From the NCBI RefSeq assembly GCF_032484785.1, contig NZ_JAUETR010000001.1:372001-436000 (forward strand): 64,000 bases of DNA. Reading direction: 5' to 3'. Positions within the stretch are counted from its first letter, which is position 1. The number at the start of each line of letters is the position of its first letter. This stretch comes from Bradyrhizobium sp. SZCCHNS1050. Lineage in GTDB: Bacteria; Pseudomonadota; Alphaproteobacteria; Rhizobiales; Xanthobacteraceae. The position numbers and the translations under genes were made by a program. Positions 27,262 to 54,110 of the stretch are shown here, piece after piece. The notes below the pieces were generated by a model. The model made no database searches. It worked only from the letters and a program-made list of their open reading frames with translations, and was not told the DNA's origin.

Positions 27262-27272
27262 GAATCAACCCG

Positions 27273-28289: not shown

Positions 28290-28299
28290 GGTCGCTCCG

Positions 28300-29583: not shown

Positions 29584-29772
29584 AAATTGACGTTCCGGTG
29601 GTTTCGAAGGCATTGACGCCGCCCTGACGACTGTTTAGCCACCGGGGCCAAGGTCCCGCAAGGGGTGGGCGGAACTCGCCGCCGCCACTCCGCGTCAGGG
29701 AACGCTCCAGGACTGGGCTCGCAGCTTGCGCTCGGCCTGGATTTATCTTCAGCAGGGGCCAGCCGAGCTGCC

Positions 29773-35975: not shown

Positions 35976-38366
35976 TTACCAGGGAAGCTTGAAGGAGTGC
36001 CACGGGTGTGGCGTGGCGCGCAGGCTGCGGAAGATCGGCTCCATCTGGGCCGACGCCACGGGCGGTGTCTGCTCGAGTGCCCGCTTGTAATCCGCGATCC
36101 AAGCCTGGTCGAGGGGCTCAATGCCGGGCGCCAACCACGTCAGCAGCACTGTATCGCCATCCGTCCATTTCACGCCGAGAATGGACGCGATATTTTCTGG
36201 CCGGAACAGGGATGCGTTCGGGAGCACGTCCGGCACACTCAAGATCTTTGCCAAGCTTCGCGAGAACAGGAAGTAGTTCAGCCCTGCTTGCTGCAGCACC
36301 TCCCGTCCCTGCTCCGGCGTTCCGAAGGTCAGGACGTCCCAGTCACGTCCCGTCGTGAAGGCCGGGAAGGTCTGCATGCGGCAATCCGGCAACATGCAGT
36401 AGCTGTGGGCGTGCATGGACCGGATCGGTACCCCAGGGCCAACCGCGGAATACGCCCCTCGAGCGCCGGGGTGGATGCCGCCCCATGGCAGGCGGCCGGG
36501 CCATCCGGTCTGGGCGACGTAGGCTTGATCGATGCTGTAGGCCCCCCGGGCAAACCGCCAAGCCTGCGACGCAACCGCGGAAAATGCGCCAGGTTGGTAG
36601 CTTTTGGCGGCGCCGTGCCACGTCGCCCACAGCACCAGCGCCGGCAGAACGAGCCCCAGCGCTTGTCGCCGACCGAAATGGCGCGACGACAGGTTGCCCC
36701 AACAGCAGGTGCCGAACGCGATCGAGACGATGCAGGTGAAGCTCGCGTAGCGGAAGAACGAGATCGGCTGCGCGCGCCCGGCTGTCGAGGTCAGCACTAG
36801 GCAGGCCAGGATCGAAATGAGGAGGAAGGCGAGCAGGACCGGGTCGCGAACAACAGCACGGCGGACTAGGAGTGCCAACGCAAAAAGGAGCACCCCACCG
36901 CCGACCAGGGGGTAGAGCAGATCCAGCCGGAGCGAATTGATCAGGAGGTCGACCAGGGGCATGCCGAACGGCATGCTGTTCGCCAGCATGCCGGTGGTGC
37001 CTTGGTGAAGGTAGATGACCCACGGCAACGTGCCGAGCTGATACAATTTCTCGACATCGGCATACTTCCAAAGAGTGAGAACGCCCTGATCGTTGATCAG
37101 ACCTGTCACGGCATAATTGATGCCGAGCAGGGAGAGCAAAGCCAGCCCGGCCGTAACCGTAAGCAGCAGACAATTGCGCGAAAGCCGCCACCTCCGCCGG
37201 AACAGCAGCAATGCGGAAAGAGTAGCAAAGACGGCGCCAAAGTAGATCGATATGGTCACGTTGATGATGACTGCGGCAACGATCGCGCAGGCCGCAGCGA
37301 CCCACCAGACGCGCTCGCCTCGCGCCAACGCGTTCGCGGTCAGCCAGATGACGGCTGCGACCAGCGCCGCGTTCAGTTCATGCAATTTTTCGAAGTCGCC
37401 CCACCCGCCATTGAGACGGTATTCGCCTTGCCCGGGCGTATGGATGTAGAGCGCGAGCCAGAGGATGACGCCGACGTGAGGCCACCAGGTCTCCGGCGCC
37501 AGTCGAGACAACAATTGGAACAAGGCAATTGACGCGACGGCAACCAGGCAGAACGTCACGAGCTGAGGCGCCAGCGGATCCGTCAGCAGCATACCGAGGA
37601 AATAGAGTCCGGCGCCCTTGGAATAATAGAAGTGGTACCAGACCTCGTTCGGCCAAAGATTGCCGCGGGCAATGACGCTTTGGAGATACGGAAAGTAGTG
37701 CAGGAAATAGTCATGGCCGCCTGCTGGATAGAGCCCCTTGACCAGCAGCAGCATCAGCAGGCTTGCACCGAGCACTGCGGTGAGACATTTCGCGACAACG
37801 GCCTCGACGCTGGTTGCGGGCGAAGGCAGCGAGCCCGGCTGCAGCGGGGCGAGACGGATCGCAAGCTCGCTCCAAGCGCAGCGAACATGTGACGTCGACA
37901 GGACAACGAGCGGCAATGTCAGCAGGACGGCGACGTACGGCGTGTACAGGCTGAGAAACCCGAGACCGAGCATCCCGAGATGCCAGACACCAGCCCCGGC
38001 GAAGAAGCCGACCGCGAGCCATTCGAGCGTGCCTGTGCCGGCCGGCCTTTCACAGCGCAACAGGCTGAGGGCCAGGCTGCCTGCGGCATGCACGATCCAG
38101 AACAGATAGAAGATGAAGACGACACGGCAGAGGTTGTAGAGGACGACAAGCGGCCCGCTGGTCGCAAAATGGGCGTGATAGACGTCGATCCACCTGAAGA
38201 AGAGAATCAGCGCCGCGTAACCGCCGACATGCAGAAGAGCGGGAGGGGACAGCCAGCGCCCGCGGACCGATGAGGGGCTCGGGGGCGAGGACGCATGCGG
38301 ATCGCGCGCCCGGCCAAGACCGGCCCAGGTATGAATCGGAACAAATAAGGTCCAACGCCTAAACAT
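35976..38366 (-). CDS. Large polytopic membrane protein of unrecognised family, paralogue A
   Basis: The 796-residue protein has about 12 or more hydrophobic segments in the first 560 residues and a soluble C-terminal part. Shared landmarks with the divergent paralogue at 38850 are LYP(A/G)GG.DF..HYFPY, EVWYHFYYSKGAGLYFLGML followed by LTDP, and C-terminal LQQAGLNYFLFSRS and GVKWTDGDTVLLTW. Aspartates and histidines in the first periplasmic-type loop resemble the GT-C glycosyltransferase plan (acidic residue plus HYFPY), so a lipid-linked sugar transferase is a possibility, but I cannot assign a family. It lacks the C-terminal cysteine-rich domain of its paralogue. It converges on the GT2 gene. 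Confidence 0.75.
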   Translation of the reverse strand: MFRRWTLFVPIHTWAGLGRARDPHASSPPSPSSVRGRWLSPPALLHVGGYAALILFFRWIDVYHAHFATSGPLVVLYNLCRVVFIFYLFWIVHAAGSLALSLLRCERPAGTGTLEWLAVGFFAGAGVWHLGMLGLGFLSLYTPYVAVLLTLPLVVLSTSHVRCAWSELAIRLAPLQPGSLPSPATSVEAVVAKCLTAVLGASLLMLLLVKGLYPAGGHDYFLHYFPYLQSVIARGNLWPNEVWYHFYYSKGAGLYFLGMLLTDPLAPQLVTFCLVAVASIALFQLLSRLAPETWWPHVGVILWLALYIHTPGQGEYRLNGGWGDFEKLHELNAALVAAVIWLTANALARGERVWWVAAACAIVAAVIINVTISIYFGAVFATLSALLLFRRRWRLSRNCLLLTVTAGLALLSLLGINYAVTGLINDQGVLTLWKYADVEKLYQLGTLPWVIYLHQGTTGMLANSMPFGMPLVDLLINSLRLDLLYPLVGGGVLLFALALLVRRAVVRDPVLLAFLLISILACLVLTSTAGRAQPISFFRYASFTCIVSIAFGTCCWGNLSSRHFGRRQALGLVLPALVLWATWHGAAKSYQPGAFSAVASQAWRFARGAYSIDQAYVAQTGWPGRLPWGGIHPGARGAYSAVGPGVPIRSMHAHSYCMLPDCRMQTFPAFTTGRDWDVLTFGTPEQGREVLQQAGLNYFLFSRSLAKILSVPDVLPNASLFRPENIASILGVKWTDGDTVLLTWLAPGIEPLDQAWIADYKRALEQTPPVASAQMEPIFRSLRATPHPWHSFKLPW

Positions 38367-38849: not shown

Positions 38850-41549
38850 ATGAAGCCCAGCTCGATGGATCTCGAAAACAAGCCATGGTCGCGTACCACC
38901 GCGGTCGCGTTTGCCGTTCTCGCCGCCCTGTTCTGGCTGGAGATCGCCTGGTTCAACCTCGTCGATCCCTATGAAAAGCACTATTTCGATGCGGGCCTCA
39001 TCATGGTGCTGCATCAAGGGGCGCGCCTGGTCTCGATGCTGCTGATGGGGTGGCTGGTCTATGCAACTGGCGCCGGCCTGCTCGCTCTGCTGCCGCCGAT
39101 CAAGTCAGGAACTCGATTGCTGGCGACCGACATCGCCCTGCTCGGCTTTGCCTTCGGATGCTTCATCTGGCACGTCGTCATGCTCGGGCTTGGCCTGGCA
39201 AGCCTGTACTACCGGCCGCTGCTCGCGGCCGTGGCCTTTGTGGTGATCGCCCTGTCCTCGCCGCACGCGGCTGCCGTCGCCGGCAAGTTTCGCGAGGCCT
39301 GGCCGCGGCTGCAGCTCCAGCGGCCCGGACGGCTCGCGGCTGTGATCGTGATGAGCTTCGTCGCCCTGTGGCTGCTGACGCTGAAATCGCTGTATCCGGG
39401 CGGCGGTGGCGACTTCTACACGCACTACTTTCCCTACGCCGTCGCGGTCCTGAAGAATCACGGGCTCGTGCCGAATGACGTCTGGTATCATTTCTACTAT
39501 TCGAAAGGCGACGGGCTGTTCTTCCTCGCCATGCTGCTGACCGATCCGATGGCGCAGCCGCTGGTGACCAGTATTTTCGTCGCCTTCGCAGCGCTCGCGG
39601 TCGGAGATCTGACCAACCGGCTCATCCCAAACTCGCTCTGGCCGCTCTGCGCGATGCTGGCTTATCTGCTCTTGAACGCCGTCAACATGAATCCGACCGG
39701 CGGAGGCGAGTTCCAGAAGTCGCACGAAGTGGTCGCCGCGTTGGTGACCCTGATGGCCTGGGCGCTTTGCCGTCACCGCACCGAGGGCGCGCCGATCTTC
39801 ATCGCGATGGCCTCCGCCTGCGCTGCGACGATCGCGATCGTCAATCTGCCAGTCGGCGCAATCCTGAGCTTCGTGTTCGCGTTACTCGGCGCTCCCGCCT
39901 TGCTGTCCCGCTCCTACCGGCGATTCTGGCAGATGTTTGCGGCCGGTGCCTTCGTGGCACTTACTGCGGCCAGCGTGCTCGCGCTCAATCAGGGGGTAAC
40001 GGGCCTCGCATCCGACCAAGCCCTCGGCGCGACGCTCAAGATCGCGGATTTCGCCCGCCTGGACCGCCGGGGCCTGCTTCCGCAGATCGTGTCCTTGGCG
40101 TGGATGCACGACAACCTCGACGATCTCGCACCGCCCTTCGGATGGGACGACATATCGAGGTTAGCAGAATATATGCGTGTCTTTTTTCTCTGGCCCTTGC
40201 TCGTCGCTCCTGGCGTTGTGCTACTGGGAGCCATCCTGAATTGGCTCCTTTTCCTTCGAAGCCGGCGCGCTCCTCGTGAGCTGGCTCATCTGGTTTTCGA
40301 CTACAACTTCGCCTTAGACTCACGCGGGTCGATAATCCGACTCTGCCTCGTCATTGGCCTTTTTGCTGTCGTTTTGACGATGAGTGGCCGCGCCCAGAAT
40401 ATCTCAGCTTTCCGGGCTAGCTCCTTCTTCGTGCCACTTCTGATTATGTTAGATGTTGCTCTGGTGGCTTGGCTCTTAAGCCTGCCGGTCAAGCAGCTTG
40501 GGGTTAGGTTAGTTCACAAGACGATACTACCCGTCGCTGGTCTCATAGGGTGCCTGATCACTTGGCAGGTTGACTACTATTGGGCACAGCAGTTCCTTGA
40601 GGGCGCCGCCAACGGCTTGCGATTACTGAGTGGTCGCTACAGTCTTGCGACGGCATATGAGCGCCATCCGCTCGGTACACTAGCCGTTGGATTAAGGCTC
40701 GGCGGTATTGAGCCCGGTACGCTCGCGGCGTCGCGGCAGTTGCCGCCCGATACGCGGATTTGGAGCACCAACGTCGATTCCTACTGCATGGTACCGCACT
40801 GCCAAGTCGAGTCCGTGGTTTCTTTCAAGATGTCCGACCGTCTGGACGAAATCCTCGGAGGATCGCCGGACCATGCCAAGCAGCTGCTGCAGCAAGCCGG
40901 CCTCAACTATTTCCTGTTCTCAACCCAGCATCGGCTGCTTGACATGCTGCCCTACAGCCAATTGTTTGATCCGAAGATCATTGGCGACTATCTCGGTCTC
41001 GCATGGACCGATGGGGCGACATTCCTGCTGACCTGGAAATCTCCCGACATCGCTCCACTGGGCGAGGATTTTCTCGAACCCTATCGTCACCGCGTCGCTG
41101 AAAAAGAATCGCCCTGGTTCCAGTTTCGCGATTTGATCCGGTACATGCAGCCGACAGTCGCCCGGCTGCGGTCAGGCAATGTCGATGTGGCTCACGCTTT
41201 CCCCTGGCGCAACGCGCCATCGTCCGGCATCCAGATCGTCGAGGCCACCTACGGCCGAAACTGCCGCTTCTTCAGACCGCCCTACCCTGGCATCAACATG
41301 TTCCGCCGCAACAATGCGGGCATCTTCATGAGAAACGAGTGCCGCGGTCGCGACCATTGCACCGTTCCCGTTTCAGTGTCGGAGATCGGCGATCCTGCCC
41401 AGGGATGCGGTAAGGATTTTTCTGTCGTCTACCAATGCGCCGGAGACTCCAAGCAACGAACCTTTGAACTTCCCGGCGAAGCTAACGGCCAAAATGTCGA
41501 GCTCAACTGTTCGCAAGCCAGCGACGCAAAGCAAAGCCGAGGAGAATAG
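38850..41549 (+). CDS. Large polytopic membrane protein with C-terminal six-cysteine lectin-like domain, paralogue B
   Basis: The 899-residue protein aligns with paralogue A over its length (SLYPGGGGDFYTHYFPY, DVWYHFYYSKGDGLFFLAML, QQAGLNYFLFSTQ, LAWTDGATFLLTWKSPDI). It then continues with about 115 extra residues. This tail has ATYGRNCRFFRPPYPGINMF, NECRGRDHC, IGDPAQGCGKDFSVVYQC and a final VELNC: six cysteines and the YGR/DP/K.F..Y.C pattern of SUEL-type galactose/rhamnose-binding lectins. The membrane part has about 12 helices. I infer an enzyme acting on a lipid-linked or extracellular glycan with a sugar-binding tail. From about 40.1 kb the codon use becomes more AT-rich than in the first part. 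Confidence 0.78.
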   Translation: MKPSSMDLENKPWSRTTAVAFAVLAALFWLEIAWFNLVDPYEKHYFDAGLIMVLHQGARLVSMLLMGWLVYATGAGLLALLPPIKSGTRLLATDIALLGFAFGCFIWHVVMLGLGLASLYYRPLLAAVAFVVIALSSPHAAAVAGKFREAWPRLQLQRPGRLAAVIVMSFVALWLLTLKSLYPGGGGDFYTHYFPYAVAVLKNHGLVPNDVWYHFYYSKGDGLFFLAMLLTDPMAQPLVTSIFVAFAALAVGDLTNRLIPNSLWPLCAMLAYLLLNAVNMNPTGGGEFQKSHEVVAALVTLMAWALCRHRTEGAPIFIAMASACAATIAIVNLPVGAILSFVFALLGAPALLSRSYRRFWQMFAAGAFVALTAASVLALNQGVTGLASDQALGATLKIADFARLDRRGLLPQIVSLAWMHDNLDDLAPPFGWDDISRLAEYMRVFFLWPLLVAPGVVLLGAILNWLLFLRSRRAPRELAHLVFDYNFALDSRGSIIRLCLVIGLFAVVLTMSGRAQNISAFRASSFFVPLLIMLDVALVAWLLSLPVKQLGVRLVHKTILPVAGLIGCLITWQVDYYWAQQFLEGAANGLRLLSGRYSLATAYERHPLGTLAVGLRLGGIEPGTLAASRQLPPDTRIWSTNVDSYCMVPHCQVESVVSFKMSDRLDEILGGSPDHAKQLLQQAGLNYFLFSTQHRLLDMLPYSQLFDPKIIGDYLGLAWTDGATFLLTWKSPDIAPLGEDFLEPYRHRVAEKESPWFQFRDLIRYMQPTVARLRSGNVDVAHAFPWRNAPSSGIQIVEATYGRNCRFFRPPYPGINMFRRNNAGIFMRNECRGRDHCTVPVSVSEIGDPAQGCGKDFSVVYQCAGDSKQRTFELPGEANGQNVELNCSQASDAKQSRGE

Positions 41550-41667
41550 CGAGACAAACCCAACGCGCTTGCCGTCGTTGCGCAACAAGACGTAGCAGCG
41601 AACTGAAGCGGAACGCCCCTTCAGCTGGCCGTACTGACGCTAGGTTCGGTGACCTTGCCCCCAAGTT

Positions 41668-42597
41668 TTATCCAGATCTGAGTTCGTTCGGGCGGTTTGA
41701 TGTGCCCATCTGGGCGGTCGTAGCGGCGGGAGCTGGCGCGGAGCTCTCGGCATAGCGCAGCGCCAGATCCCGACGCGGATTGCAGGTGGCGGCGAACTCG
41801 GATGGCGTCTTCCATCCGAGCTGGGAGTGCGGCCGAGCGTCGTTATAGTCGGTCCGCCAGCATCGGAGCGCGACGCGGGCCTGAGCAAGCGAGGTGAACA
41901 GCGTCTCGTTCAGCAGTTCATCCCGCAGGCGACCGTTGAAGCTCTCGATGAAGGCGTTCTGCATGGGTTTGCCCGGCGCGATGTAGTGCCAGGCGACACG
42001 GCTCTGATCGGTCCATGTCAGGATGGCATTGCTCGTGAGCTCGCTGCCGTTGTCGCTCACCACCATCTTGGGCTTGCCGCGCTCGGCGACCAGCCGGTCC
42101 AGCTCCCGGGCGACCCGGGCGCCCGAGAGTGAAGTGTCGGCCACCAGCGCCAGGCACTCGCGGGTGCAGTCGTCGACCACGGTCAGGATGCGGAAGCGCC
42201 GGCCATCGGTCATCTGATCCGACACAAAGTCGAGTGACCAGCGATCATTCGGGAGCAGCGGCACCGTCATCGGCGCTCGCGTCCCGATAGCGCGCTTGCG
42301 GCCACCTCTGCGGCGCACCGTGAGCCGTTCCTCCCGGTACAGCCGGAACAGCTTCTTGTGATTGACCAGGTAGCCCTCCCGCTTGAGCAGGACGTGCAGG
42401 CGACGATAGCCGAAGCGGCGACGCTCATGGGCGATCGCCCTCATGCGCTCCCGCAGCCCGGCATCATCGGCCCGGCTCGTCCGATATCTGACCGTCATGC
42501 GGCAACAGCCGATGGCTTTACACGCCCGCCGTTCGCTCATCCCGTGAACGCGCACGAGATGTGCGACAGCTCTCCGCTTCGCCGCAGGCGTCACCAC
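41668..42597 (-). CDS. IS3-family transposase OrfB (element A)
   Basis: About 309 residues from the GTG overlapping the end of orfA. It contains the HTH_21-type start ([20 protein letters not shown]) and an integrase core with DDE residues: [27 protein letters not shown] and [19 protein letters not shown], i.e. D, D and the glutamate of the FIESFNG motif. It is expressed as an OrfAB fusion by -1 frameshifting in this family. The reading frame is open and intact, so the element may be active. Confidence 0.9.
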
Positions 42598-42857
42598 TTC
42601 TTTCCCAGGAGATCCTTCAGGGCGGCATTGTCCAGCATGGCGTCCGCCAGCAGCCGCTTGAGCCGCGTGTTCTCGTCCTCCAGCGTCTTCAGCCGCTTGG
42701 CCTCCGAGACGTCCATTCCGCCGAACTTGGCCTTCCACTTGTAAATGCTGGCGTCGCTCACGCCATGCTTGCGGCAGAGATCGGCGACCGGAACGCCAGC
42801 CTCGTGCTCCTTCAAAATCCCAATGATCTGCTCTTCCGTAAAGCGGCTGCGCTTCAT
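42591..42857 (-). CDS. IS3-family transposase OrfA (element A)
   Basis: The 88-residue protein has the HTH_Tnp_1 domain ([20 protein letters not shown], then [20 protein letters not shown]) and a C-terminal leucine zipper ([20 protein letters not shown]). It binds the inverted repeats and ends in GKKW, overlapping orfB in the -1 frame. The coding region is intact. Confidence 0.92.
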
Positions 42858-43145
42858 GCTCTGGTCCTCGTTGGGCCAGAACGAACTTCAAACTGGATTA
42901 AGCCCCAGGGGCAAGGTCACCGACCGACGGCCGGCTGACGATGCTGGATGTGCGCCCGCTGTTCGAGGCGACCGATGGCGAGGCGGCCAGACAGCGGAGC
43001 CCCCCTCGCCGCAGAATGTCAAAGCGATAGCGAGCCCGAGTTGCTGGGAACGGCTCCGACGGAAGGCCCCGTGACCAGACCGGCTTCACAAGGCGTTAAC
43101 GATCTGCCACCAGGGTTGATAGTTGATTCGTGCGGGAGCCGATCG

Positions 43146-44780
43146 ATGGCGAACTACACCTTGGAAGGCGCGAAATGGGGTAACCCGACCTTCGGAACGT
43201 ACGGAGGTACCGTCACCTGGGCAGTGGACGGCACGGTTCCAGCGATCTTCATCAACTATTTGATCGCCGCCTTCGCCGATTGGGCGAAATACACCAATAT
43301 CCAATTCCAGGAAGTCGCTTCGACGGCGACATCGAACATCGACATTTCGCTGGCCAGCATCGACGGCCTCGACCAGATCCTGGCCCAGACCCAGTACTGG
43401 TACTCGGGAACGTCGTTCGTTTCGGCGACCATCACGTTCGATAGCGGAGAAGGCTGGCACTCCTCTTCCAGCAACGTCATCAGCAACGACAATGTGAACC
43501 TTTACCCCGTGGCCCTGCACGAGATCGGCCACGCCATCGGCCTTGGCCACTACAACTCGGTCCCGGCGATCATGAATGCCTATTACAATGCATCCGTGAC
43601 GGACCTGCTCCAGCCGGACATCGACGGCATCGAGGCCATCTATGGCAACGCGGTTGCTCCCTCCTACTCATTCAGCGTCACTGTTACGGCGCCGGCCGGG
43701 AGAATGGGCCCGGAGTGGCATCTGTTGGCCAGCGCGGACTATACGGGAGATGGGAACGCCGATCTCACATGGATGGACACGGCCGGAAACATCGCGCTTT
43801 GGACCATGAAGAGCGGGGCCCTCGCGGCTGCTCAAATCACCCAGGGACACATGGGCACCGAGTGGACGGCGTTTTCGACGAATGCTGATTTCAACAAGGA
43901 CGGAAAGGCCGACCTGCTGTGGACCAGCAATGGTAGTGCGGCGATCTGGGAAATGAACGGAGCGTCCCTCGCCGGTTTTGCAAGCCCCGGTGGACACATG
44001 GGCCCAGAATGGCAACTAAAGGGCGTCGGTGATCTCAATGGCGATGGCAATTCGGATCTGGTTTGGGTGAGCTCGTCGAATCAGGTTGCGCTCTGGTCGA
44101 TGAACGGAGCGGCGCTTGCAAACGCTGAGCTCTCCGATGGTCAAGACGGTAGCGAGTGGACCTTCAGTGGCGTCGGCAACTTCGACAGCAATGGAAAAGC
44201 CGACCTACTCTGGGTGAGCTCCTCCGGGGCTGTTCAGGTGTGGTCCATGAGCGGCTCACATGTGATCGGGGCCTCCACCGTGGGCCAGGCCCCTACGGGA
44301 TCGCACATCGCGGGGATCGCCGATGTGACCAAAGATGGCGTCGATGACATCGTGTGGATCGATGCTTCGAACAACGTCAAGATCTGGCAGATGAAAAATG
44401 ACAGCGTCGCCGAGGTCCTGACGCCGAGCGGCCATATGGGCACGGAATGGCAGCTGTCGAGCATCGGCGATGTGACCGGTGACGGACGTCCAGATCTGGT
44501 CTGGACAAGCGGCGGAGCGACCGCGGTCTGGAACCTGGGAGCGATCAGCTCGGTCGCCGCCGCCGTGACAGCGGACAACTTCCAGTTCGACCCCGCCAAA
44601 CTCGCCTCGCTTGCAAGCCAATCAACCTTTGACGCGGCGGGACCGCACATCGCGATGTCGAGCGATATTGATCCATACTACGCCGCCCCGACGCCGGAGA
44701 TCGGGCAGACTGGGCTTCATGATGCGCTGGACTTCACGTCCGCGTTTCTGAATTCTCACGCCCACGACTTTCTCGTCTAG
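43146..44780 (+). CDS. Metzincin (matrixin-like) zinc metalloprotease with FG-GAP/VCBS-type repeats
   Basis: From the ATG at 43146 the product has 544 residues. The N-terminal protease domain has HEIGHAIGLGHYNSVPAIMN, the HExxHxxGxxH zinc motif with the Met-turn context of matrixin/M10 enzymes. It is followed by about six repeats of about 45-50 residues, each with a D.NGDG.aDlvW-type loop (DLNGDGNSDLVWVSSSNQVA, DVTGDGRPDLVWTSGGAT). Such repeats form calcium-binding beta-propellers. No N-terminal signal peptide is seen, so type I or another non-Sec route is likely (inference). The frame is open 66 codons further upstream, but that part looks non-coding. The gene lies between IS elements and differs in character from its neighbours, suggesting acquisition with them. 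Confidence 0.82.
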   Translation: MANYTLEGAKWGNPTFGTYGGTVTWAVDGTVPAIFINYLIAAFADWAKYTNIQFQEVASTATSNIDISLASIDGLDQILAQTQYWYSGTSFVSATITFDSGEGWHSSSSNVISNDNVNLYPVALHEIGHAIGLGHYNSVPAIMNAYYNASVTDLLQPDIDGIEAIYGNAVAPSYSFSVTVTAPAGRMGPEWHLLASADYTGDGNADLTWMDTAGNIALWTMKSGALAAAQITQGHMGTEWTAFSTNADFNKDGKADLLWTSNGSAAIWEMNGASLAGFASPGGHMGPEWQLKGVGDLNGDGNSDLVWVSSSNQVALWSMNGAALANAELSDGQDGSEWTFSGVGNFDSNGKADLLWVSSSGAVQVWSMSGSHVIGASTVGQAPTGSHIAGIADVTKDGVDDIVWIDASNNVKIWQMKNDSVAEVLTPSGHMGTEWQLSSIGDVTGDGRPDLVWTSGGATAVWNLGAISSVAAAVTADNFQFDPAKLASLASQSTFDAAGPHIAMSSDIDPYYAAPTPEIGQTGLHDALDFTSAFLNSHAHDFLV

Positions 44781-44979
44781 ATCACCCCTAGCGAAGGCGA
44801 GTCGTGGCTCAAGCTGGAAAAAGGCCAGAACGCTTCCCTCCTCCCGCAATGGCTGAAACTCGCGCAATTTGTTGAGAAGCGCAGTCAACTTGCAAGCTTG
44901 CGACCGACGTAGCCTGTGACCTGCCCCTAAGAATTTCCTCCAGAACGATTTAGAGTCCGGCCTGACGAAGGACGGACAG

Positions 44980-45246
44980 ATGAAGCGAAAGCGGTTCACG
45001 GAAGAGCAGATCATCGCGGTTTTGAAGGAGCACGAGGCCGGTGCGAAGACGGCCGATCTGGCTCGGAAGCACGGGATTTCGGAAGCGACGTTCTACAATT
45101 GGAAGGCTAAATTCGGCGGCATGGACGTCTCCGAAGCCAAGCGGCTGAAGGCGCTCGAGGACGAGAATGCCAAGCTGAAGAAGCTGCTGGCCGAGCAGAT
45201 GCTCGATGCGGCCGCGCTGCGGGAGCTGCTCTCAAAAAAATGGTAA
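44980..45246 (+). CDS. IS3-family transposase OrfA (element B)
   Basis: The 88-residue HTH protein ([40 protein letters not shown]) has a leucine-zipper tail (LKALEDENAKLKKLLAEQML). It is parallel in design to OrfA of element A but a different sequence. It ends in TCA AAA AAA TGG TAA, so the stop lies just beyond an A7 slippery run. Confidence 0.92.
   Translation: MKRKRFTEEQIIAVLKEHEAGAKTADLARKHGISEATFYNWKAKFGGMDVSEAKRLKALEDENAKLKKLLAEQMLDAAALRELLSKKW
45234..45240 (+). promoter_or_regulatory. A7 programmed -1 frameshift site between orfA and orfB of element B
   Basis: Seven consecutive adenines are read as TCA AAA AAA in the orfA frame, giving the slippery heptamer A AAA AAA. Slipping back one base enters the orfB frame at ATG GTA AGG, producing the OrfAB transposase. 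This is the standard expression mode of two-ORF IS3 elements. Confidence 0.8.
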
Positions 45247-46166
45247 GGCCTGCCGCCAAGCGCGCCGCGGCGGCGCACCTGCAGGCCAAGCTGGGCCTGT
45301 CGGAACGGCGGGCCTGTTCGATCGTCGGAGCGGACCGGACGATGGTCCGCTACCGGTCCCGCCGGCCCCCCGACACCGCGCTTCGGGGCCGCTTGCGCGA
45401 GCTCGCCAGCGAGCGGCGGCGCTTCGGCTATCGACGGCTGTTCATTCTGTTGCGGCGGGAGGGCGAGCCGTCCGGGATCAACCGCGTCCATCGACTTTAC
45501 CGGGAGGAAGGGCTCACGGTGCGCAAGCGCCGCAGCCGCCGCAAGGCCTGCGGCGTCCGCGTGCCAATCCTGGTCGATGCGAGGCCGAATGCGCGCTGGT
45601 CGCTGGACTTCGTGTCCGATCAGTTCGTAGGCGGGCGGCGCTTCCGCATCCTCAACATCGTTGACGACGTCACCAAGGAGTGCCTGGGCGCGATTGCCGA
45701 CACTTCGCTCTCGGGGCGGCGGGTGGCGCGGGAGCTGACCTCGATCATCGCCCGGCGCGGCAAGCCGGGCTCGATCGTCTCGGACAACGGCACCGAGTTT
45801 ACCAGCAACGCGATGCTGGCCTGGTGCAGGGACAACGCGATCGACTGGCACTTCATCGCACCGGGCAAGCCGATCCAGAACGCCTTCGTCGAGAGCTTCA
45901 ACGGCCGGATGCGCGACGAGTTCTTGAATGAAACGCTGTTCTTCGGTCTCGATGATACCAGGCGCAGGCTCGCCGCCTGGGTTGCCGACTACAACAACGC
46001 GCGGCCGCATTCCTCGCTGAGATACCAGACCCCTGCGGCCTTTGCCGCCAACCTCACCGCAACGGGCGATCGGCTGCGCAACCCCGACCAGCTCCGCCAA
46101 TCGCCCGTTGCTCCACCCGCGCCACTCGGCGTACAACCCACCCGGACTCTAAACGCTGCTGGATGA
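45240..46166 (+). CDS. IS3-family transposase OrfB (element B)
   Basis: The 308-residue integrase-core protein has an HTH_21 part ([20 protein letters not shown]) and DDE residues in [30 protein letters not shown] and [19 protein letters not shown]. The ATG at 45240 overlaps orfA by seven bases within the A-run. The frame is intact to its end near the right inverted repeat. Confidence 0.9.
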
Positions 46167-46181
46167 AACTTCGGTGGCAGC

Positions 46182-46879
46182 TCAATCACAAGAAGCTGTT
46201 CCGGCTGTACCGGGAGGAACGGCTCACGGTGCGCCGCAGAGGTGGCCGCAAGCGGGCCCTCGGCACACGAGCTCCGATGACGGTGCCGCTGCTCCCGAAT
46301 GATCGCTGGTCGCTCGACTTCGTGTCGGATCAGATGACCGACGGCCGGCGATTCCGCGTCCTGACCGTGGTCGACGACTGCACCCGCGAGTGCCTGGCGC
46401 TGGTGGCCGACACCTCACTCTCGGGCGCCCGGGTCGCTCGAGAGCTGGACCGGCTGGTCGCCGAGCGCGGCAAGCCCAAGATGATGGTGAGCGACAACGG
46501 CAGCGAGCTCACTAGCAATGCCATCCTGACATGGGCCGATCAGAGTCGCATCGCCTGGCACTACATCGCGCCGGGGAAACCCATGCAGAACGCCTTCATC
46601 GAGAGCTTCAACGGCCGCCTGCGGGATGAAATGCTGAACGAGACGCTGTTCACCTCGCTCGGCCAGGCCCGCGTTGCGCTCCGATGCTGGCAGGCCGACT
46701 ATAACGACGCTCGGCCGCACTCCCAGCTCGGATGGAAGACGCCATCCGAGTTCGCCGCCCCCTGCAATCCGCGTCGGGATCTGGCGCTGCGCTATGCCGA
46801 GAGCTCCGCGCCAGCTCCCGCCGCTACGACCGCCCGGATGGGCACATCCAACCGCCCGAACGAACTCAGATCTGGATAA
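46182..46879 (+). pseudogene. Truncated element A transposase OrfB
   Basis: The frame encodes [20 protein letters not shown] through the integrase core ([46 protein letters not shown]). It lacks the N-terminal HTH region and orfA. A new ATG contributed by the right end of element B (46163) keeps it open, but no full transposase can be made. A few substitutions against the complete copy (for example WAD for WTD, DEML for DELL) show the copies have diverged slightly. Confidence 0.88.
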
Positions 46880-46897
46880 AACTTGGGGGCAAGGTCA
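46182..46897 (+). mobile_element. Element A, 5'-truncated second copy (opposite orientation)
   Basis: From 46182 the sequence follows the interior of element A orfB (TCAATCACAAGAAGCTGTTC) to its right terminal repeat GGGGCAAGGTCA (46886-46897). The first about 550 bp, including orfA and the N-terminal third of orfB, are missing, and element B lies exactly at the break. Relative to the complete copy at 41650 it is inverted. The arrangement indicates insertion of element B into element A followed by loss of the outer half, or recombination between copies. Confidence 0.9.
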
Positions 46898-48600
46898 CCT
46901 GGATAGTCGAAATCATGCCAGCAGCGGGCATCGCTCATCTTCGGAGTATTAATCACCTCGATAAACTCACCATACAGGCGATGTTCTGGACGATGCACCG
47001 CTCTTTCGAGGTAGTCTGCGAGAGTGTATGCGATATTCTGCAACCTCTCGAAAATTGCGTAGTCAGCATGCATCTCTTCGCAGAAGTCGACGAATGCCGG
47101 CATCTCACGAAAGTTTTCGATCTGGTATGTGAACGAGAACTTCAGCTGAGGCACGACCGTCATACGCAAATGACGGAGGAAGCGCATATTCTCGATGAAC
47201 GGCTCATACCTTCCCAAACGGCGCAATTTCTCGAACGTGACCTTCGTCGCCGCATCGATTGAGATCCGGATTGACTGGACTCGGTTGTGAATCCCTGGGT
47301 ACTTGTTCCATTCCTGCTCGCTGAACAGCGTGCCATTGGAGATAATCGCAAGCTTCACATCCGGCGCAGCTTCGTCGCTGATCATCTCCAATACTTTACG
47401 AGACGGCTTGCTCGCGAATAGCTCTCCCGCAGGATTGATGTGCAAAATTTTGGCTTTCGCCAAAAGCGGTGCAAACTTATCCTCGACGGCACGCGCTTTT
47501 GCGGTTGACTGAGACGGCTTCTCGACAATCCGCTCCGTTCGGCACGAAGGACACGAGAGATTGCACGTCTGGTCGAAAGCAAACATCACCTCCGAAGGAT
47601 GATCGAGGCGAAAGTCCTTCGTCTCCATTGCAGTCCGGATCACTTCAGGCGCATTCTCGACCCTGGTCAGAGTGTCTCTGACCATCGCTCCACAATCGAC
47701 GTGATTGCAGTATTTGTACGTCCCATCTGTCACCGACTTTCGAATATCTAGAGCCACTCGAGAATTGAGCACGCCCTCCACGGACTGGTCCATGAAGTTC
47801 CCGACTGACGTCGGCATCCAATGCCCGCAGCAAAGAAGCACCGTTCCGTCTGGCCCGATGTCGAACCGCTCGAACGGCAAGGTACAAACGAACTGCTTGA
47901 GATAGTCATTGTCATCGCCAAGGAATTTCTCGAGCCTTGGGTGAACGTCCGCACCGGCGGCTTTAAGCGCCAACGCATGCTTCGCTCCCTTGAGCAGAAC
48001 AGATCCCGGCGCTCGCACTATCGCTTGCTGAATGACATCTGCGGCTTCCTCATACCTACTTGCCTTCGCATATATTCTGCATAGTGCTAACGTCATCGCC
48101 TCGAAAATCGCCCAGCGAAACGCATCGTTTCCAGAAGTCGCCTCATAGGCGTCTACGGCGGCACGGAGCAGTCTGGACTTTTGGTCGGCAGACAATGGTG
48201 ACGCCAGATCGCCCAGCCCATACGCTGGATATCCGAAGAACGACGGATGATTAACCTCGCCCGCGCGCCGACATGGATCGTTTCTTGCAGCTCGTTGGCG
48301 CCCGTTGCCCAAGCGTAAAAGCAGCTGCAAGCTTGATAGGTGTCGAGTTGAAGCGCGCGCTCCACCCCCCGAAGCAATTGAGATCCCGCAAACGCCGGAA
48401 GCTCTGACAGCTCCCGCACAAATTGCGCCGGCCTCGTTCTGAGTGGGGCAAGTCAGAAAAGCACCAGCCCCCTCGTTGCCCTCCCCTAGGCGGACCATAA
48501 TAAAGGGGTGAAAGCCGGTTCGCTCTATCTGGTCGATGAACCCTCGATCGAACCGAGTTCCGAGATCGACGCCCCCCCGAGCGAAACTCTGGCCGCACAT
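46898..48600 (-). pseudogene. Radical SAM protein gene, truncated by IS end and with two frameshifts
   Basis: The minus-strand frame encodes a radical SAM domain with AFDQTCNLSCPSCRTERIVE (CxxxCxxC cluster). Upstream of it is a cysteine segment VLLCCGHWMPTSVGNFMDQS with YCNHVDC, SPASM-like but N-terminal. The last native residues are CWHDFDYPG; the frame then runs into the terminal repeat of element A and stops inside it. In the 5' part the protein-like reading switches frame twice: NEAGA continues in another frame as QFVRELSELPAFAG at about 48415, and GARAR returns as GEVNHPSFFGYPAYG at about 48265. The true start is unclear; an ATG at 48600 is one candidate. Likely non-functional unless these shifts are sequencing errors. 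The original substrate is unknown. Confidence 0.75.
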
Positions 48601-48841
48601 CTCGGCCAGACCACGCAAAGCGGGATAAACGGGCCAGAAGGTTCACCGTACAATCTCCGGAACAAAAAATGCCCCGAGGTCAACCCTCAGGCTAGAAAAA
48701 GCTCAACTATTCAACCGTACCAAGCGCTCAACGTCAAGCGGTGCAGGCACAGATCCGCCACTTCCCAGCCCAAATGTTGCCGGCATGCTTCACCCTACGC
48801 GCACGACGCCCTATAGGTAGCACAGCTGGTTTGGGGGAGAG

Positions 48842-50613
48842 ATGCACACGATGAACGCGCCCGCTGTCGATAAACGATTTGCAGGTCAGCCCACGACTAT
48901 AGAGGACCCGCTCATCGACCGGCTCCCCCCTTTACCAGCTTTGACCGGACTACGATTCTTTGCTGCCTTTTTCATACTGTTCGCGCACGCGACAGACTGG
49001 ATTGCAACATTTCAGAATTACAATATTCGGGACAAGCTTTCGTTTGTCGCAATGTACGGCATGCCGCTATTCTTTGTTTTGAGCGGCTTCGTGATCCACT
49101 ACAACTACGCGAGACTTTTTGGTACTGTTGGAACTGCACAAGCCGTGCGTGAATTCGCGACAGCGAGATTCGCACGGCTATTCCCCCTCTACCTTGTTCT
49201 TCTCTTGTTTTCGGTGTTTGCGGACAACTTCCTTGCCAAGACCTATGGTAGGACTGACCTACTCCTTGCCATCTTGGCCCACTACTTCAGCCTCACGCAA
49301 TCCTGCGTGGTACAACATCTATGAAGGGCAGTCCATAATAGACTGGCTGTCTCCACTTTCCTGGTCGATTTCGACCGAGACGTTTTTCTATCTCGCGTAT
49401 ATTGGGGTTGCGTTTCTGAGCTTTCGATTACGGAGTAGCCGCGCCGCCTTCTGGGCTCTCATCACCTTCTGCTGCGCGAGCATTTTGATGCTCGTTGCCT
49501 CCCGCTACTTCCTGGCTGAGCTTCTTGGCTTGGCTCGCAAAACCAAACCGGACTACATCGACTTGAACGATCGTTTCTCAAGTTCGTTCTACCGCTGGCT
49601 TTTTTACTTCTCACCGTATGTGCGTATTCTCGAATTTGTAACCGGCTGCCTCACATCGCATTTGATCATACGTCTGAGGCCGCTCCAATGCTCAGCGGCC
49701 GAAGCCTGGCTTCGGGAGGTCGGACTGGCGGCAGCCTTTCTACTTCTCGTGGGTGCAGGTTTGGTGAAGGTTGGCTATGGTCACGAGACCGTTGTCGCTG
49801 CTTACGTACAGCACCTTTCGAACAATTTCGTTTGCGTCCCTTCGATAGCGTACATCCTCTTTTACGTCGCGCGCTACGATACGCGGTTTACACGATTGTT
49901 GTCCTCCCCGACCCTGGTTGCTCTTGGTGAGGCAAGTTACTCAATCTACCTCGTTCACACCTGGACTTTAAGGGTTTTCCTCAGGCCCGAACCTGCGCTG
50001 AACTGGACCTTTGCTTTGGATACGGTTGGCCGAATTACGTTCGGCATCGCATTTACCCTTGTCGTCTCTTATGCAACGTATCAACTGATCGAGCGTCCCA
50101 GCAGATCCTGGCTGCGGGCGCGTCTTGGAAGAATCAGAGCCACTCAAGCGTTCCCGCCCCGCCAGCCAGGCGTTTCTGGACCTCACATTCCGATTAAGCC
50201 GGCCCTGGTCGTAACTATGCTATTGCTGGCGGTTGTTGTCGGAGGCCAAGCAGCCAAATCTGAAGTACCTTGGAGGATGCTTAGCCGTTTATGGTCCGGT
50301 GACCGCCCGGAGATCGAGGTGCTATCCGCAAGCTACGGATTGAACTGCAAGGGCACAATAGGAGCATCAATCCCGGTCAAACTTGGCAACGTGACCCCAA
50401 GTCTCGCTCGTTCATGCAATCAGCGCACCCGATGTGAGTTTTCGATCTCCACATCGCGCCTCGCGCGATCCAGCGAATGGCTGCGGAAAGGAGTTTTCAG
50501 TTACCTATAAATGCTCTAGATCAGAGACAATCAACTCACTCCTTATAGAAGCTGAGGCCGACGGCAAGCGTGCCATTCTTGATTGCGCTGCATCGAGTCA
50601 AGCTGCTGAGTGA
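48842..50613 (+). pseudogene. Acyltransferase-3 (OafA-type) with C-terminal lectin-like domain, two frameshifts
   Basis: Frame 1 (48842-49324) encodes the start of a membrane O-acyltransferase (LTGLRFFAAFFILFAHATDW, GMPLFFVLSGFVIHYNYARL). The match switches at about 49300 to the frame containing YNIYEGQSIIDWLSPLSWSI and YVRILEFVTGCL, which stops at 50510. After a second one-base shift at about 50465 the sequence continues as DPANGCGKEFSVTYKC and ends ILDCAASSQAAE before a TGA at 50611-50613. This restores a complete six-cysteine domain (YGLNC, RSC, TRC, NGC, YKC, LDC) like that of the membrane protein at 38850. It would acetylate or acylate a surface polysaccharide. GC content is visibly lower than in flanking genes, indicating horizontal origin. 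As read, it is inactivated. Confidence 0.75.
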
Positions 50614-51074
50614 AACTGCGGCTATTCCGGTTGCCCATACGGTTGCCGGAGATCACGTCGAAAGCCGTCATCTGCCAGCCCGGCGCTGTGCTGAACCGCG
50701 CCCGCACATGCGTCGCCGTCGCCACGGCGTTTCCCTGGCGCAACCTGCCCGTCAACGGCATAGACATCATCGAGGCGAGCTACGGTCGGAATTGCCGCTT
50801 CTTCAAACCACCCTACCCCGGCATCAACATGTACCGGCGCAACAACGCGGGCATGTATCTGCGCACCCAATGCCGAGGTCGAAGCCACTGCAGCGTTACA
50901 GTCGAACTGTCCGAGATCGGAGATCCCGTCCAGGGCTGCGGGAAGGATTTTTCCGTTGTCTATCAATGTGAGGAAGACAGCAAACGGCGAACCTTCGAAC
51001 TACCAAGTGAGGCGAATGGCAAGATGGTCGAACTCGATTGTTCGGTGGCCGACGAGGAAACGTCGAAAGAATAG
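50610..51074 (+). CDS. Nearly free-standing six-cysteine SUEL-like lectin domain protein (possible C-terminal fragment)
   Basis: The 154-residue frame opens with a GTG overlapping the acyltransferase TGA. From about residue 40 it matches the tail of the 899-residue membrane protein: AFPWRNLPVNGIDIIEASYG, PYPGINMYRRNNAGMYLRTQ, CRGRSHC, IGDPVQGCGKDFSVVYQC, VELDC. All six cysteines are conserved, with the YGR and K.F..Y.C features of galactose/rhamnose-binding lectins. The first about 40 residues are arginine-rich without a signal peptide, so it is either a cytosolic lectin-like protein or, more likely, the surviving 3' end of another large membrane protein. The start is uncertain. Confidence 0.6.
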   Translation: MKLRLFRLPIRLPEITSKAVICQPGAVLNRARTCVAVATAFPWRNLPVNGIDIIEASYGRNCRFFKPPYPGINMYRRNNAGMYLRTQCRGRSHCSVTVELSEIGDPVQGCGKDFSVVYQCEEDSKRRTFELPSEANGKMVELDCSVADEETSKE

Positions 51075-51231: not shown

Positions 51232-52521
51232 TCAGCCGGTCGTCGCAACCTGAAGATCGGGACGCACACGCGGCGAGATCGTCAGCCAGCGCCTGACGAT
51301 CCGCCGCGCTGGCATCTCGATCAGAAACCACAGCACGAGCGACAGGCCGATGATCGCCGCAAGCGTGATCGAGATCTGGGGGAGGACCGCCGCCCAGATC
51401 TGATGATCGGTCACCGCCGGCACCTCGTACCGGAACGCATTGATCACAACCATGTGGCACAGATAGATCGAGTAACTCGCCTCTCCCGCCAAGACGATCG
51501 GTCGGGCCGACAAGACCCTCACGATGACGTTGTTGTATCGGATGCAGCCGAAGATGATCACGGCGAGGAATGGCGCGAAGCCGAAGTTCATGTGCAACGC
51601 TACGATGAGCGCGGACGTGCTGGTCCTCCCGAACATGACGTACTGCAACCCGGCGGCCCCCAGGATGGCTCCGGTCATGAGCCAGAAGCCAAAACGGTTC
51701 TCGCGCTCGTTCGACGGCGGCAGGACCCGCAGCAGAGCCGAGGCCAAGCAGCCCAGGGCGAATTCAAGCACCCGGACATAAGGCGAAAAGTAAGCCAGCC
51801 AGCGGTAGATGCCATCCTGGCTTTCGCCGGCGATCGGGCCGAACTGAGTGACACCATAGGCGGCGATCTGCGGTGCCCGCAGATTGACGAACGTGACGAG
51901 TGCAAACGCTGCAACGCAGAACGCGGCGATGGCGATCAGCAGCGCTCGCGGAGTTCGCAGCAGCGCCATCGCAAGGCAGATCACCGGAAAGCAGAGATAG
52001 AAGAACCACTCGGTACTGATCGACCAGGATACGGCTGGCACCAACCCGTATTGATAGACCAGCGCATTGCCATCAATGGTCTTGTAGAGCCAGGTCTGGG
52101 TCAGCGTCAGGTAATAAGGCAGTGCTTCCAGCCGCTCCAGCTTGAACTGGTGGTAGCCGAGCTTCATCGACAGATCGAGGCAGAGAAAGAAGAGATAAAG
52201 CGGGTAGAGCCTGGCGAAGCGCGCGGCAAAGAAATTCCACAGCCCCGTCGGCGTGGACATCGCGTGGCCATAGTTCATGTGAATGACGAAGCCGCTCAGG
52301 ACAAAGAACAAAGTCATGCCGGCGCCGGACAGGCTTCCGACGACGCTCAGCAGCGTATGCAGAATCGAGCCGCTCCCCGGCACCTTGACCATCATCGCGA
52401 AAATGTGGCTGACGACGACCGTCAACGCCGCGATGAATCGCAGCCCGGTCAGACTCGGTACGTTCTCCTTAATCACTCCGCCCCCCGGCTGGCCCCCTGC
52501 GCCGGACGAGGCGCACACCAT
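51232..52521 (-). CDS. Acyltransferase-3 family membrane O-acyltransferase (OafA/NodX type)
   Basis: The 429-residue protein has about ten membrane helices and the family pattern VPSLTGLRFIAALTVVVSHI, then GAGMTLFFVLSGFVIHMNYG and FAARFARLYPLYLFFLCLDL. The catalytic arrangement (histidine in helix 1, R.aRLYPLY) is intact. WSISTEWFFYLCFPVICLAM is the other conserved segment. It would transfer acetyl or another short acyl group from the cytoplasm to a sugar on the outer side. The ATG at 52521 is used here; the frame opens four codons earlier at a TTG. Unlike the acyltransferase at 48842, it has no lectin tail and no frameshift. Confidence 0.88.
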   Translation of the reverse strand: MVCASSGAGGQPGGGVIKENVPSLTGLRFIAALTVVVSHIFAMMVKVPGSGSILHTLLSVVGSLSGAGMTLFFVLSGFVIHMNYGHAMSTPTGLWNFFAARFARLYPLYLFFLCLDLSMKLGYHQFKLERLEALPYYLTLTQTWLYKTIDGNALVYQYGLVPAVSWSISTEWFFYLCFPVICLAMALLRTPRALLIAIAAFCVAAFALVTFVNLRAPQIAAYGVTQFGPIAGESQDGIYRWLAYFSPYVRVLEFALGCLASALLRVLPPSNERENRFGFWLMTGAILGAAGLQYVMFGRTSTSALIVALHMNFGFAPFLAVIIFGCIRYNNVIVRVLSARPIVLAGEASYSIYLCHMVVINAFRYEVPAVTDHQIWAAVLPQISITLAAIIGLSLVLWFLIEMPARRIVRRWLTISPRVRPDLQVATTG

Positions 52522-52608
52522 ACTTGGTTTCAAGTTAATTCATGGCATGAGGCAGATCAACCGCAAACCGGACGTCAGGCTTCGCGGTAGACCGCCGCTG
52601 TTTTCCGG

Positions 52609-53763
52609 TTACCGGCCGGCCGCCACCTTCACCTGCTCGGTCGCTCCGTAGCGATCGGCATCAGCCTCCTCGGGGCGCTGCTGGTAAGTCGAACGCAGAT
52701 GCAGGAATGGCAACTCGATGAGATGATAGCTGACCAGCGCGATCAGTAGCGTGACGGGCAGCACCAGGAACAACCCAAGCGCGTAGGACGACAACCACAT
52801 CAGCTTGGTCTTCAGCAGCGCGATGACCAGGATGTGCCAGATGTAGGCCGAATAGCTGCACTTGCCGAGATTGGCGAGGATCGCAGATCCCCAGATTTGG
52901 GACCGCGACCTGAGATAGAGAAGAAGGAATACACTCCACATCATGGCCTGCAACAGCGGCCAGATGACCCACTTGTTGCTGCGGCTGACGGAATCGATCG
53001 AGACATGCTGCCAGTCGACGTGAAAGAACGACGGAACGGAAAACATCATCGCGATGACGACACCGATCGCAGCGAGCGTAGCGAGTACCAGCCACGGTTC
53101 GTACTCGACCTTGCGCTGCTGCAGATGCTGATAGATCTCGGCCGCGATCATTCCCCCGATGAATAGATCGATGCTGCCAAACAGGCTGAAGTACGACAGC
53201 GCGTGTGCCGTTCCGGTCAGGGCGTATTGCGCGGCACGAAGCGCGAAGGCGATCCCGAGCACGCCGCCGTAGAACGCAAGTCGGCCGTAGCGGCGTCGGA
53301 ACCGCAGCAGAATCGGCAAGAGCAGATAGAACTGCAATTCGACGGCGATGGTCCACAGATGGCCTCCGAAGCTGCCGTATTGCAGGCGATAGAGATTTGA
53401 GATCGGCAGCAGCGACATCAGGAAATTGATTCCGGCCGCTGTCGGCCGCGGGTCCGGCGTCGTGAAATAGCCGAAACTCACGATCAGGATCAGGAGCGGA
53501 TAGATGCGCAGGGCACGGTTGTAGTAGAATTTCAGCGGCTCGACGTCACGCCCCATGAACATCGTCATCATGATGAACCCGCTGATCACCATGAACAGCC
53601 CGACGCCGACATGGCCCTGGTCGATCAGGGCGATATGGAAGGTCTCTGCCGGCCGGCCCGTGCCTCTGGTCTCGAGCACGGTATGAAATAGGATCACCAA
53701 GCCCGCCGCCAGAAAGCGCAGGTGGTCGAGCAGTGGCATGTAGTGAATGCTTCGACTTTGCAC
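52609..53763 (-). CDS. Acyltransferase-3 family membrane O-acyltransferase
   Basis: The product of about 384 residues is polytopic, with PLLDHLRFLAAGLVILFHTV (helix 1 with the catalytic histidine), VGVGLFMVISGFIMMTMFMG, YYNRALRIYPLLILIVSFGY and WTIAVELQFYLLLPILLRFR. It is an acyltransferase-3 member different in sequence from its neighbour at 51232. The start is uncertain: the GTG at 53763 gives MQSRSIHYMPLLDH, but ATGs at 53739 and 53811 are alternatives. It is 87 bases upstream of the other acyltransferase on the same strand, so they probably act on the same glycan. Confidence 0.85.
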   Translation of the reverse strand: MQSRSIHYMPLLDHLRFLAAGLVILFHTVLETRGTGRPAETFHIALIDQGHVGVGLFMVISGFIMMTMFMGRDVEPLKFYYNRALRIYPLLILIVSFGYFTTPDPRPTAAGINFLMSLLPISNLYRLQYGSFGGHLWTIAVELQFYLLLPILLRFRRRYGRLAFYGGVLGIAFALRAAQYALTGTAHALSYFSLFGSIDLFIGGMIAAEIYQHLQQRKVEYEPWLVLATLAAIGVVIAMMFSVPSFFHVDWQHVSIDSVSRSNKWVIWPLLQAMMWSVFLLLYLRSRSQIWGSAILANLGKCSYSAYIWHILVIALLKTKLMWLSSYALGLFLVLPVTLLIALVSYHLIELPFLHLRSTYQQRPEEADADRYGATEQVKVAAGR

Positions 53764-54110
53764 GTCATGCGCCCGTCCGCGTCGTATTCCGCCCTGCGGT
53801 AAGGGGATCATTGACCGACCAGCACTCAGCCCTCGAGCATGATCGGGAAAAGTGGAAACCGGCTTTCCGAAAAGATCATGCTCAAACAAAGAGACGAGAG
53901 CATAATGCGCTTCCGCGTAAGCGTATTATGCCCTGGGTGTTGGCGCGGGTTAAGGCGCGATTGGGACGAGAAGGCGACCAAGCGCCCGGCCGAAATCCGA
54001 TGGCGGACCGCCATATGAAGGTCCGGCGTCGTCGATGACCTGCGCCGCATCTCCATGCCCCGGCAGAACGCCGCGACGAGCCTGCTGCGACGCTGAGAGG
54101 CGGCCTCAAG
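53764..54110. other. Intergenic region between acyltransferase and asparagine synthase genes
   Basis: About 350 bases. The main content is the palindromic repeat at 53835-53930. Nothing else is recognisable; the presence of the repeat suggests a transcript boundary between the acyltransferases and asnB-like gene. Confidence 0.5.
53835..53930. repeat. Bradyrhizobium-type palindromic intergenic repeat (GAGCATGATC...GATCATGCTC)
   Basis: GAGCATGATC (53835-53844) and GATCATGCTC (53874-53883) are perfect inverted repeats around GGAAAAGTGGAAACCGGCTT. They are followed by a second imperfect palindrome CATAATGCGC/GCGTATTATG (53901-53930). I recognise the first unit as one of the most abundant intergenic repeats of Bradyrhizobium. 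It may act as a transcript end or mRNA-stabilising element. Confidence 0.75.

Follow-up and report, generated by a model that had tools for sequence, protein, structure and literature searches.

A putative circularly permuted SUEL/rhamnose-binding lectin module on bacterial membrane and exported proteins

What does a lectin-like domain do at the end of a bacterial membrane protein? The SUEL/rhamnose-binding lectin (RBL) domain is a small sugar-binding type found in sea urchin eggs and brain receptors. The question is raised by a stretch of 64,000 nucleotides from Bradyrhizobium sp. SZCCHNS1050 (contig NZ_JAUETR010000001.1, positions 372,001 to 436,000; here called the window), part of a 7.6 Mb genome in 6 contigs. 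The initial annotation, made from the sequence alone, had reported three copies of one six-cysteine module likened to galactose/rhamnose-binding lectins. The open reading frames (ORFs) and cysteine codons bear out the positions of these copies, here called A, B and C, and the identical order of their cysteines:

41190-41549, + strand: copy A, permuted SUEL/RBL-like module at the C-terminus of the 899-residue ORF 38850-41549
50304-50613, + strand: copy B, module split over two frames at the end of an acyltransferase-3 (AT3) gene
50733-51074, + strand: copy C, module inside ORF 50610-51074 (homologous stretch from 50709)

The cysteine codons of copy A lie at 41262, 41340, 41358, 41406, 41436 and 41508, and those of copy C at 50793, 50871, 50889, 50937, 50967 and 51039. 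Copy B was read as two separate frames, not joined; the first has cysteines at 50346, 50415 and 50433 and its ORF ends at 50510, while the second has them at 50482, 50512 and 50584 with a stop at 50613. Copies A and C show 70% protein identity and 76% DNA identity over 320 columns, and among the three only copy A, in the 899-residue protein, has an intact reading frame.

The Pfam profile of the SUEL/RBL domain, PF02140, matched copy A (E 8.1e-6, 26.6 bits), copy C (E 5.9e-6, 27.0 bits) and the first half of copy B (E 0.0089, 16.8 bits); the E-values for A and C favour the proposed lectin likeness, but all scores lie under the Pfam cut-off of 31.4 bits. A phmmer search of PDB chains with copy C found the sea-urchin lectin SUL-I at 8.9e-12. 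With a profile built from 35 modules, the chains found were SUL-I (1.5e-19), CSL3 (2.1e-12), CSL2 (5.1e-11), latrophilin (1.1e-5 to 1.1e-3) and rice beta-galactosidase (0.019), and the next chain, at 0.12, was unrelated. The likeness is not a chance one, because of the E-values obtained with PF02140 and for SUL-I with phmmer, and the homology of the module to SUEL/RBL domains is confirmed at the level of sequence comparison. Ten relatives were also scored with PF02140: five, all multi-module, lay above the cut-off (37.8-51.7 bits) and five below, and an above-cut-off match (35.2 bits) was present in 1 of 200 genomes. A phmmer search with the tandem protein P0039 alone gave weak, out-of-register PDB alignments (E 0.00028).

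Is the module, then, simply a SUEL domain? Animal RBLs begin with strands b1 and b2, whose turn holds a sugar-contacting Glu, and continue with b3-alpha-b4-b5; the bacterial module would instead have both strands after b5. The predicted model of copy C has the element order b3-alpha-b4-b5-b1'-b2', unlike the RBL order b1-b2-b3-alpha-b4-b5. Foldseek with the window-module model returned no RBL among its best 50 matches, and the family, modelled after cutting in the other register, matched the whole RBL fold, a comparison in which the effects of register and of sequence are not separated. The C-terminal segment is predicted as two strands (block means 91-93) and, in the 35-module profile alignment, this extension pairs up with b1-b2 at the beginning of the following animal repeat; bacterial tandem proteins contain both registers within one chain. 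By the models, an RBL fold is well supported, and models and alignments support the reading of the module as a circularly permuted SUEL/RBL domain, with the counterparts of b1 and b2 at its C-terminus. Homology and the SUEL fold of the family model thus stand, but two features set the module apart from a plain SUEL domain: the first two strands appear C-terminal, and there are six cysteines, one of which is re-sited. The canonical form was rejected on the element order in the copy C model and on the whole-fold match in the other register.

An ordinary SUEL domain lacking its N-terminal strands and carrying an unrelated C-terminal extension would require no permutation, and two observations speak for it, namely that the sequential alignment of the window module spans b3-b5 only and that the PF02140 matches end at the YxC cysteine. 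We nevertheless regard such a truncated domain as improbable, given that every one of the 89 modules reaching that column retains the cysteine of the extension, that the two strands of the extension are predicted with confidence and align to the next animal repeat, and that the other-register cut fits the entire RBL fold. Our search of the open-access literature found no paper linking rhamnose-binding lectins with circular permutation.

Conservation was assessed on a set of 131 domain rows in 118 sequences, of which 105 were long enough and 94 of these non-identical; many of the 94 modules are closely related, and the counts that follow are not independent. All six cysteines are present in 88 of the 94. 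Counterparts of the animal sugar-contact residues are found for Tyr63 in 90/94, Gly117 in 79/94, Lys120 in 93/94 and Glu42 in 77/94 (the Glu42 alignment being uncertain by one or two residues), and all four occur together in 67/94; copy A has the six cysteines and all of the sugar-site counterparts. In animals, latrophilin-1 has eight cysteines forming four bonds, 41-71, 50-128, 83-115 and 96-102 (PMC2430599). The animal loop-2 cysteine (DPC) is shifted three positions on in the module (DP..GC.K), which lacks any equivalent of the partner cysteines found in b1 and loop 1 of the animal domain. The most likely pairing has three bonds: the C.G..C pair would be joined as in animals, the b5 cysteine (YxC) would bond to the C-terminal LxC cysteine as in the animal b2-b5 bond, and the YG.NC cysteine would pair with the re-sited GC.K cysteine, since the missing b1 and loop-1 partners leave those two over.

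Secreted ORFs carrying a single module or a pair represent a second, more distant subfamily (L041:1162-1953, - strand; L044:1342-2682, + strand). Its loop-2 cysteine stands before GDP (LCGDP), and its C-terminal segment (e.g. REGQRLDLGC) is spaced as the animal CEG..L.L.C.

Compared with known members of PF02140 (SUL-I, CSL3 and the latrophilin RBL), the bacterial module shares profile homology, the RBL fold, the C.G..C partners, the counterparts of Tyr63, Gly117, Lys120 and probably Glu42, and occurrence both singly and in tandem. It differs in being permuted, in having six cysteines rather than eight with the loop-2 cysteine three positions on, in mostly lacking the buried Arg, and in being borne by bacterial membrane or exported proteins. 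An RBL domain on an enzyme is already known from plants, in the C-terminal SUEL domain of beta-galactosidase (rice BGal1, 5iaz), but this is a soluble hydrolase whose strand order is, by alignment, in the animal register. In OafA/OafB-type AT3-SGNH proteins, an AT3 membrane core and an extra helix are followed by an exported C-terminal domain, here a catalytic SGNH domain instead of a lectin-type module; the architecture is otherwise that of the AT3-module proteins. Anaerobic rumen fungi have a Gal_Lectin domain beside Glyco_transf_34 in one protein, an RBL-type domain together with a glycosyltransferase, and the tree of these domains was rooted with bacterial Gal_Lectin sequences (PMC6712302). 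Bacterial RBL members as such are therefore not new, having already served as outgroup there; the fungal domain, however, is animal-like and accompanies another enzyme family, and the available part of that paper makes no mention of permutation (PMC6712302).

How widespread the module is was assessed in genome searches at E <= 0.001, with the window's own genome counted and the best 11-17 candidates per genome scored. Matches were present in 18 of 265 genomes of the genus, 13 of 385 of the class and 5 of 398 of the phylum. The open frame holding the match was 544-568 codons long in 15 of these 18 genomes, which is also the size of the AT3 proteins P0062 and P0063; P0062 comes from Bradyrhizobium sp. 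Pear76, and exactly this protein is encoded in a genome of the genus (G042). In the protein database, one query retrieved 51 proteins among 66 candidates, the tail of the 899-residue protein retrieved two SGNH-domain proteins besides itself, and copy C retrieved the window's own protein alone. Relatives lie on seven Caballeronia/Paraburkholderia plasmids, listed as 'hypothetical protein' in four and with no gene listed in three. Carriers comprise acyltransferase-3 proteins, SGNH hydrolases, polytopic membrane proteins and secreted tandem proteins:

P0061-P0064: AT3 proteins
P0008, P0009: SGNH proteins
L004: 719-residue membrane protein with 8 segments (hydropathy)
P0035: metagenomic protein of the 899-residue kind (likeness by eye), with two tandem modules
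P0014, P0015, P0016, P0020, P0039, P0046: proteins with two to four modules
P0047: PF14295 protein
P0054, P0057: NPP1 (PF05630) proteins with an N-terminal module (precomputed for both, scanned for P0054)
L058:4863-5264, + strand: ORF with a signal-peptide-like start and one module, on an IMG/VR phage-like contig (read by eye)

The association with unrelated membrane proteins noticed in the window holds beyond it, and the inspected carriers look exported or membrane-bound rather than intracellular (crude hydropathy, by eye). The L058 ORF is possibly a phage-borne secreted lectin; searches of phage records gave no module match. By eye, the L058 ORF adjoins ORFs resembling endolysin and phage tail genes.

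What might the module do for such proteins? We propose, as the likelier account, that it is an exported, permuted SUEL/RBL tail with the three bonds described, which binds the glycan of its carrier and holds protein and polymer together. The tail would be exported at the C-terminus of its carrier and would bind a rhamnose/galactose-type glycan, or its precursor, on which the carrier works, the carrier being an acyltransferase-3, an SGNH hydrolase or a polytopic membrane protein that may be a glycosyltransferase; the module would act as a tether keeping the protein on its glycan. Export is suggested by the six conserved cysteines and, from crude hydropathy, by the single N-terminal hydrophobic segment of P0008, by the position of the AT3 module after the last hydrophobic segment, and by the 11 segments and Lys/Arg distribution (21 vs 6) of a 796-residue paralogue of the 899-residue protein. 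For the 899-residue protein itself, where hydropathy is undecided, the tail may be exported.

The strongest rival holds that the permuted RBL fold serves protein-protein contact, or is a disulphide-stabilised spacer, and does not bind sugar. Rhamnose binding by the latrophilin RBL is weak (Kd 1.8 mM), and the authors of that study propose non-carbohydrate ligands for RBLs attached to receptors (PMC2430599); the carriers are very dissimilar, and the Glu column lacks Glu in 17 of the 94 modules. Yet the Lys, Tyr and Gly of the site are kept at the frequencies given above, several glycan enzymes figure among the carriers and the modules of the window lie among glycan-making genes, so that we consider a purely protein-binding or spacer role unlikely. 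A different doubt concerns the window alone, where the modules could be mostly debris of a strain-specific island rich in insertion sequences (IS), with no present role. Copy B is broken and copy C appears to be a remnant, IS-like genes separate A from B, and the 899-residue gene was found in 1 of the 257 genus genomes searched (E <= 1e-20), its own; against this, copy A combines an intact frame of 899 codons with a complete set of cysteines and sugar-site counterparts, and a metagenomic relative of the 899-residue kind, P0035, bears two modules in tandem. We hold it somewhat unlikely that the window modules are mostly debris.

If the glycan-tether reading is right, the module may help membrane proteins of surface-sugar metabolism to keep hold of their sugar chains; its presence as a tail on acyltransferase-3, SGNH and polytopic membrane proteins offers a possible way in which these enzymes could remain attached to their polymer. 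A lectin fold familiar mainly from animals and plants is extended to bacteria, permuted and with changed disulphides, the sugar site being largely kept. More tentatively, and with doubt slightly prevailing, bacteria may hold a widespread, unrecognised permuted SUEL/RBL branch that serves as a plug-in glycan-binding tail of membrane or exported glycan enzymes, the tandem forms showing how animal/plant and bacterial forms could have arisen from one another through displaced domain boundaries within an array of repeats. Both registers occur in one tandem bacterial chain, and the origin of the permutation is therefore testable.

The genes that surround the modules are as follows:

25849-29613, - strand: sugar-nucleotide genes (ManC-type guanylyltransferase/isomerase, NAD epimerase, UDP-sugar dehydrogenase; Pfam)
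35976-38366, - strand: 796-residue paralogue of the 899-residue protein, without module, divergent neighbour
38850-41549, + strand: 899-residue polytopic membrane protein (ORF; crude hydropathy)
41668-42891, - strand: IS3-like transposase region between copies A and B (ORFs), with a 96% copy in contig L001 of the same genome
44980-46879, + strand: further IS3-like transposase ORFs and fragment (ORFs 44980-45246, 45240-46166, 46163-46879)
48842-50613, + strand: broken AT3 gene with C-terminal module (ORFs 48842-49324, 49119-50510)
51232-52533, - strand: AT3 without module (PF01757, E 6.9e-26)
52609-53889, - strand: AT3 without module (PF01757, E 9.1e-31)

Sugar-nucleotide, glycosyltransferase, methyltransferase and acyltransferase genes identified by Pfam near the modules point to a surface-polysaccharide locus, in agreement with the surface-glycan setting first suggested.

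The 899-residue protein has about 12 hydrophobic segments followed by a long soluble C-terminal part (crude hydropathy), and its sole Pfam match is PF02140 at residues 791-863. It matched no NCBIfam family, residues 1-750 have no PDB sequence relative, PHROG holds no family for it or for modules A and C, and module C gave a non-significant NCBIfam match only. The first 604 residues of the 719-residue carrier likewise have no PDB sequence relative. Because the cores of both proteins found no PDB sequence relative, the suggestion that they may be glycosyltransferases is guesswork based on their topology and neighbouring genes. The 796-residue paralogue (33% identity, BLASTP E 7e-89) has no PF02140 match up to E 1, and the tailed and tail-less paralogues, adjoining in the window, offer a ready comparison.

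The AT3 gene does end in copy B, as first described, but it is also broken elsewhere, with frame changes both near 49.3 kb and inside the module; ORF 48842-49324 matches PF01757 at 45.6 bits (cut-off 31). L001 holds a second copy, 95% identical, with its module in a single frame. Since the long ORF begins downstream of the same frame change in both copies, the break near 49.3 kb is probably older than the gene duplication, unless frameshifting is used.

The block shared with L001 (window 48806-50717, 95% over 1912 bases, containing the acyltransferase gene) ends at 50717, and DNA and protein comparison place the onset of homology between the 899-residue gene and copy C at 50709-50712. Because this homology begins where the L001-like block ends, copy C, described earlier as almost free-standing, is probably the 3' remnant of a second gene of the 899-residue kind, and an independent lectin gene was rejected on these comparisons; the part of ORF 50610-51074 upstream of the module shows no signal peptide by eye, and a signal-peptide-plus-module ORF exists elsewhere, in L058 (by eye).

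L001 also matches window 46182-46739 at 97%, within the second transposase region; both regions are presumably IS3-like, going by their motifs. Between the two IS-like elements lies a 610-residue ORF (42948-44780, + strand) in which, by eye, a HEIGHAIGLGH motif of metalloprotease type and FG-GAP-like repeats are seen, and a 608-residue ORF (46792-48618, - strand) has a CNLSCPSC motif, which we take to be of the radical-SAM type.
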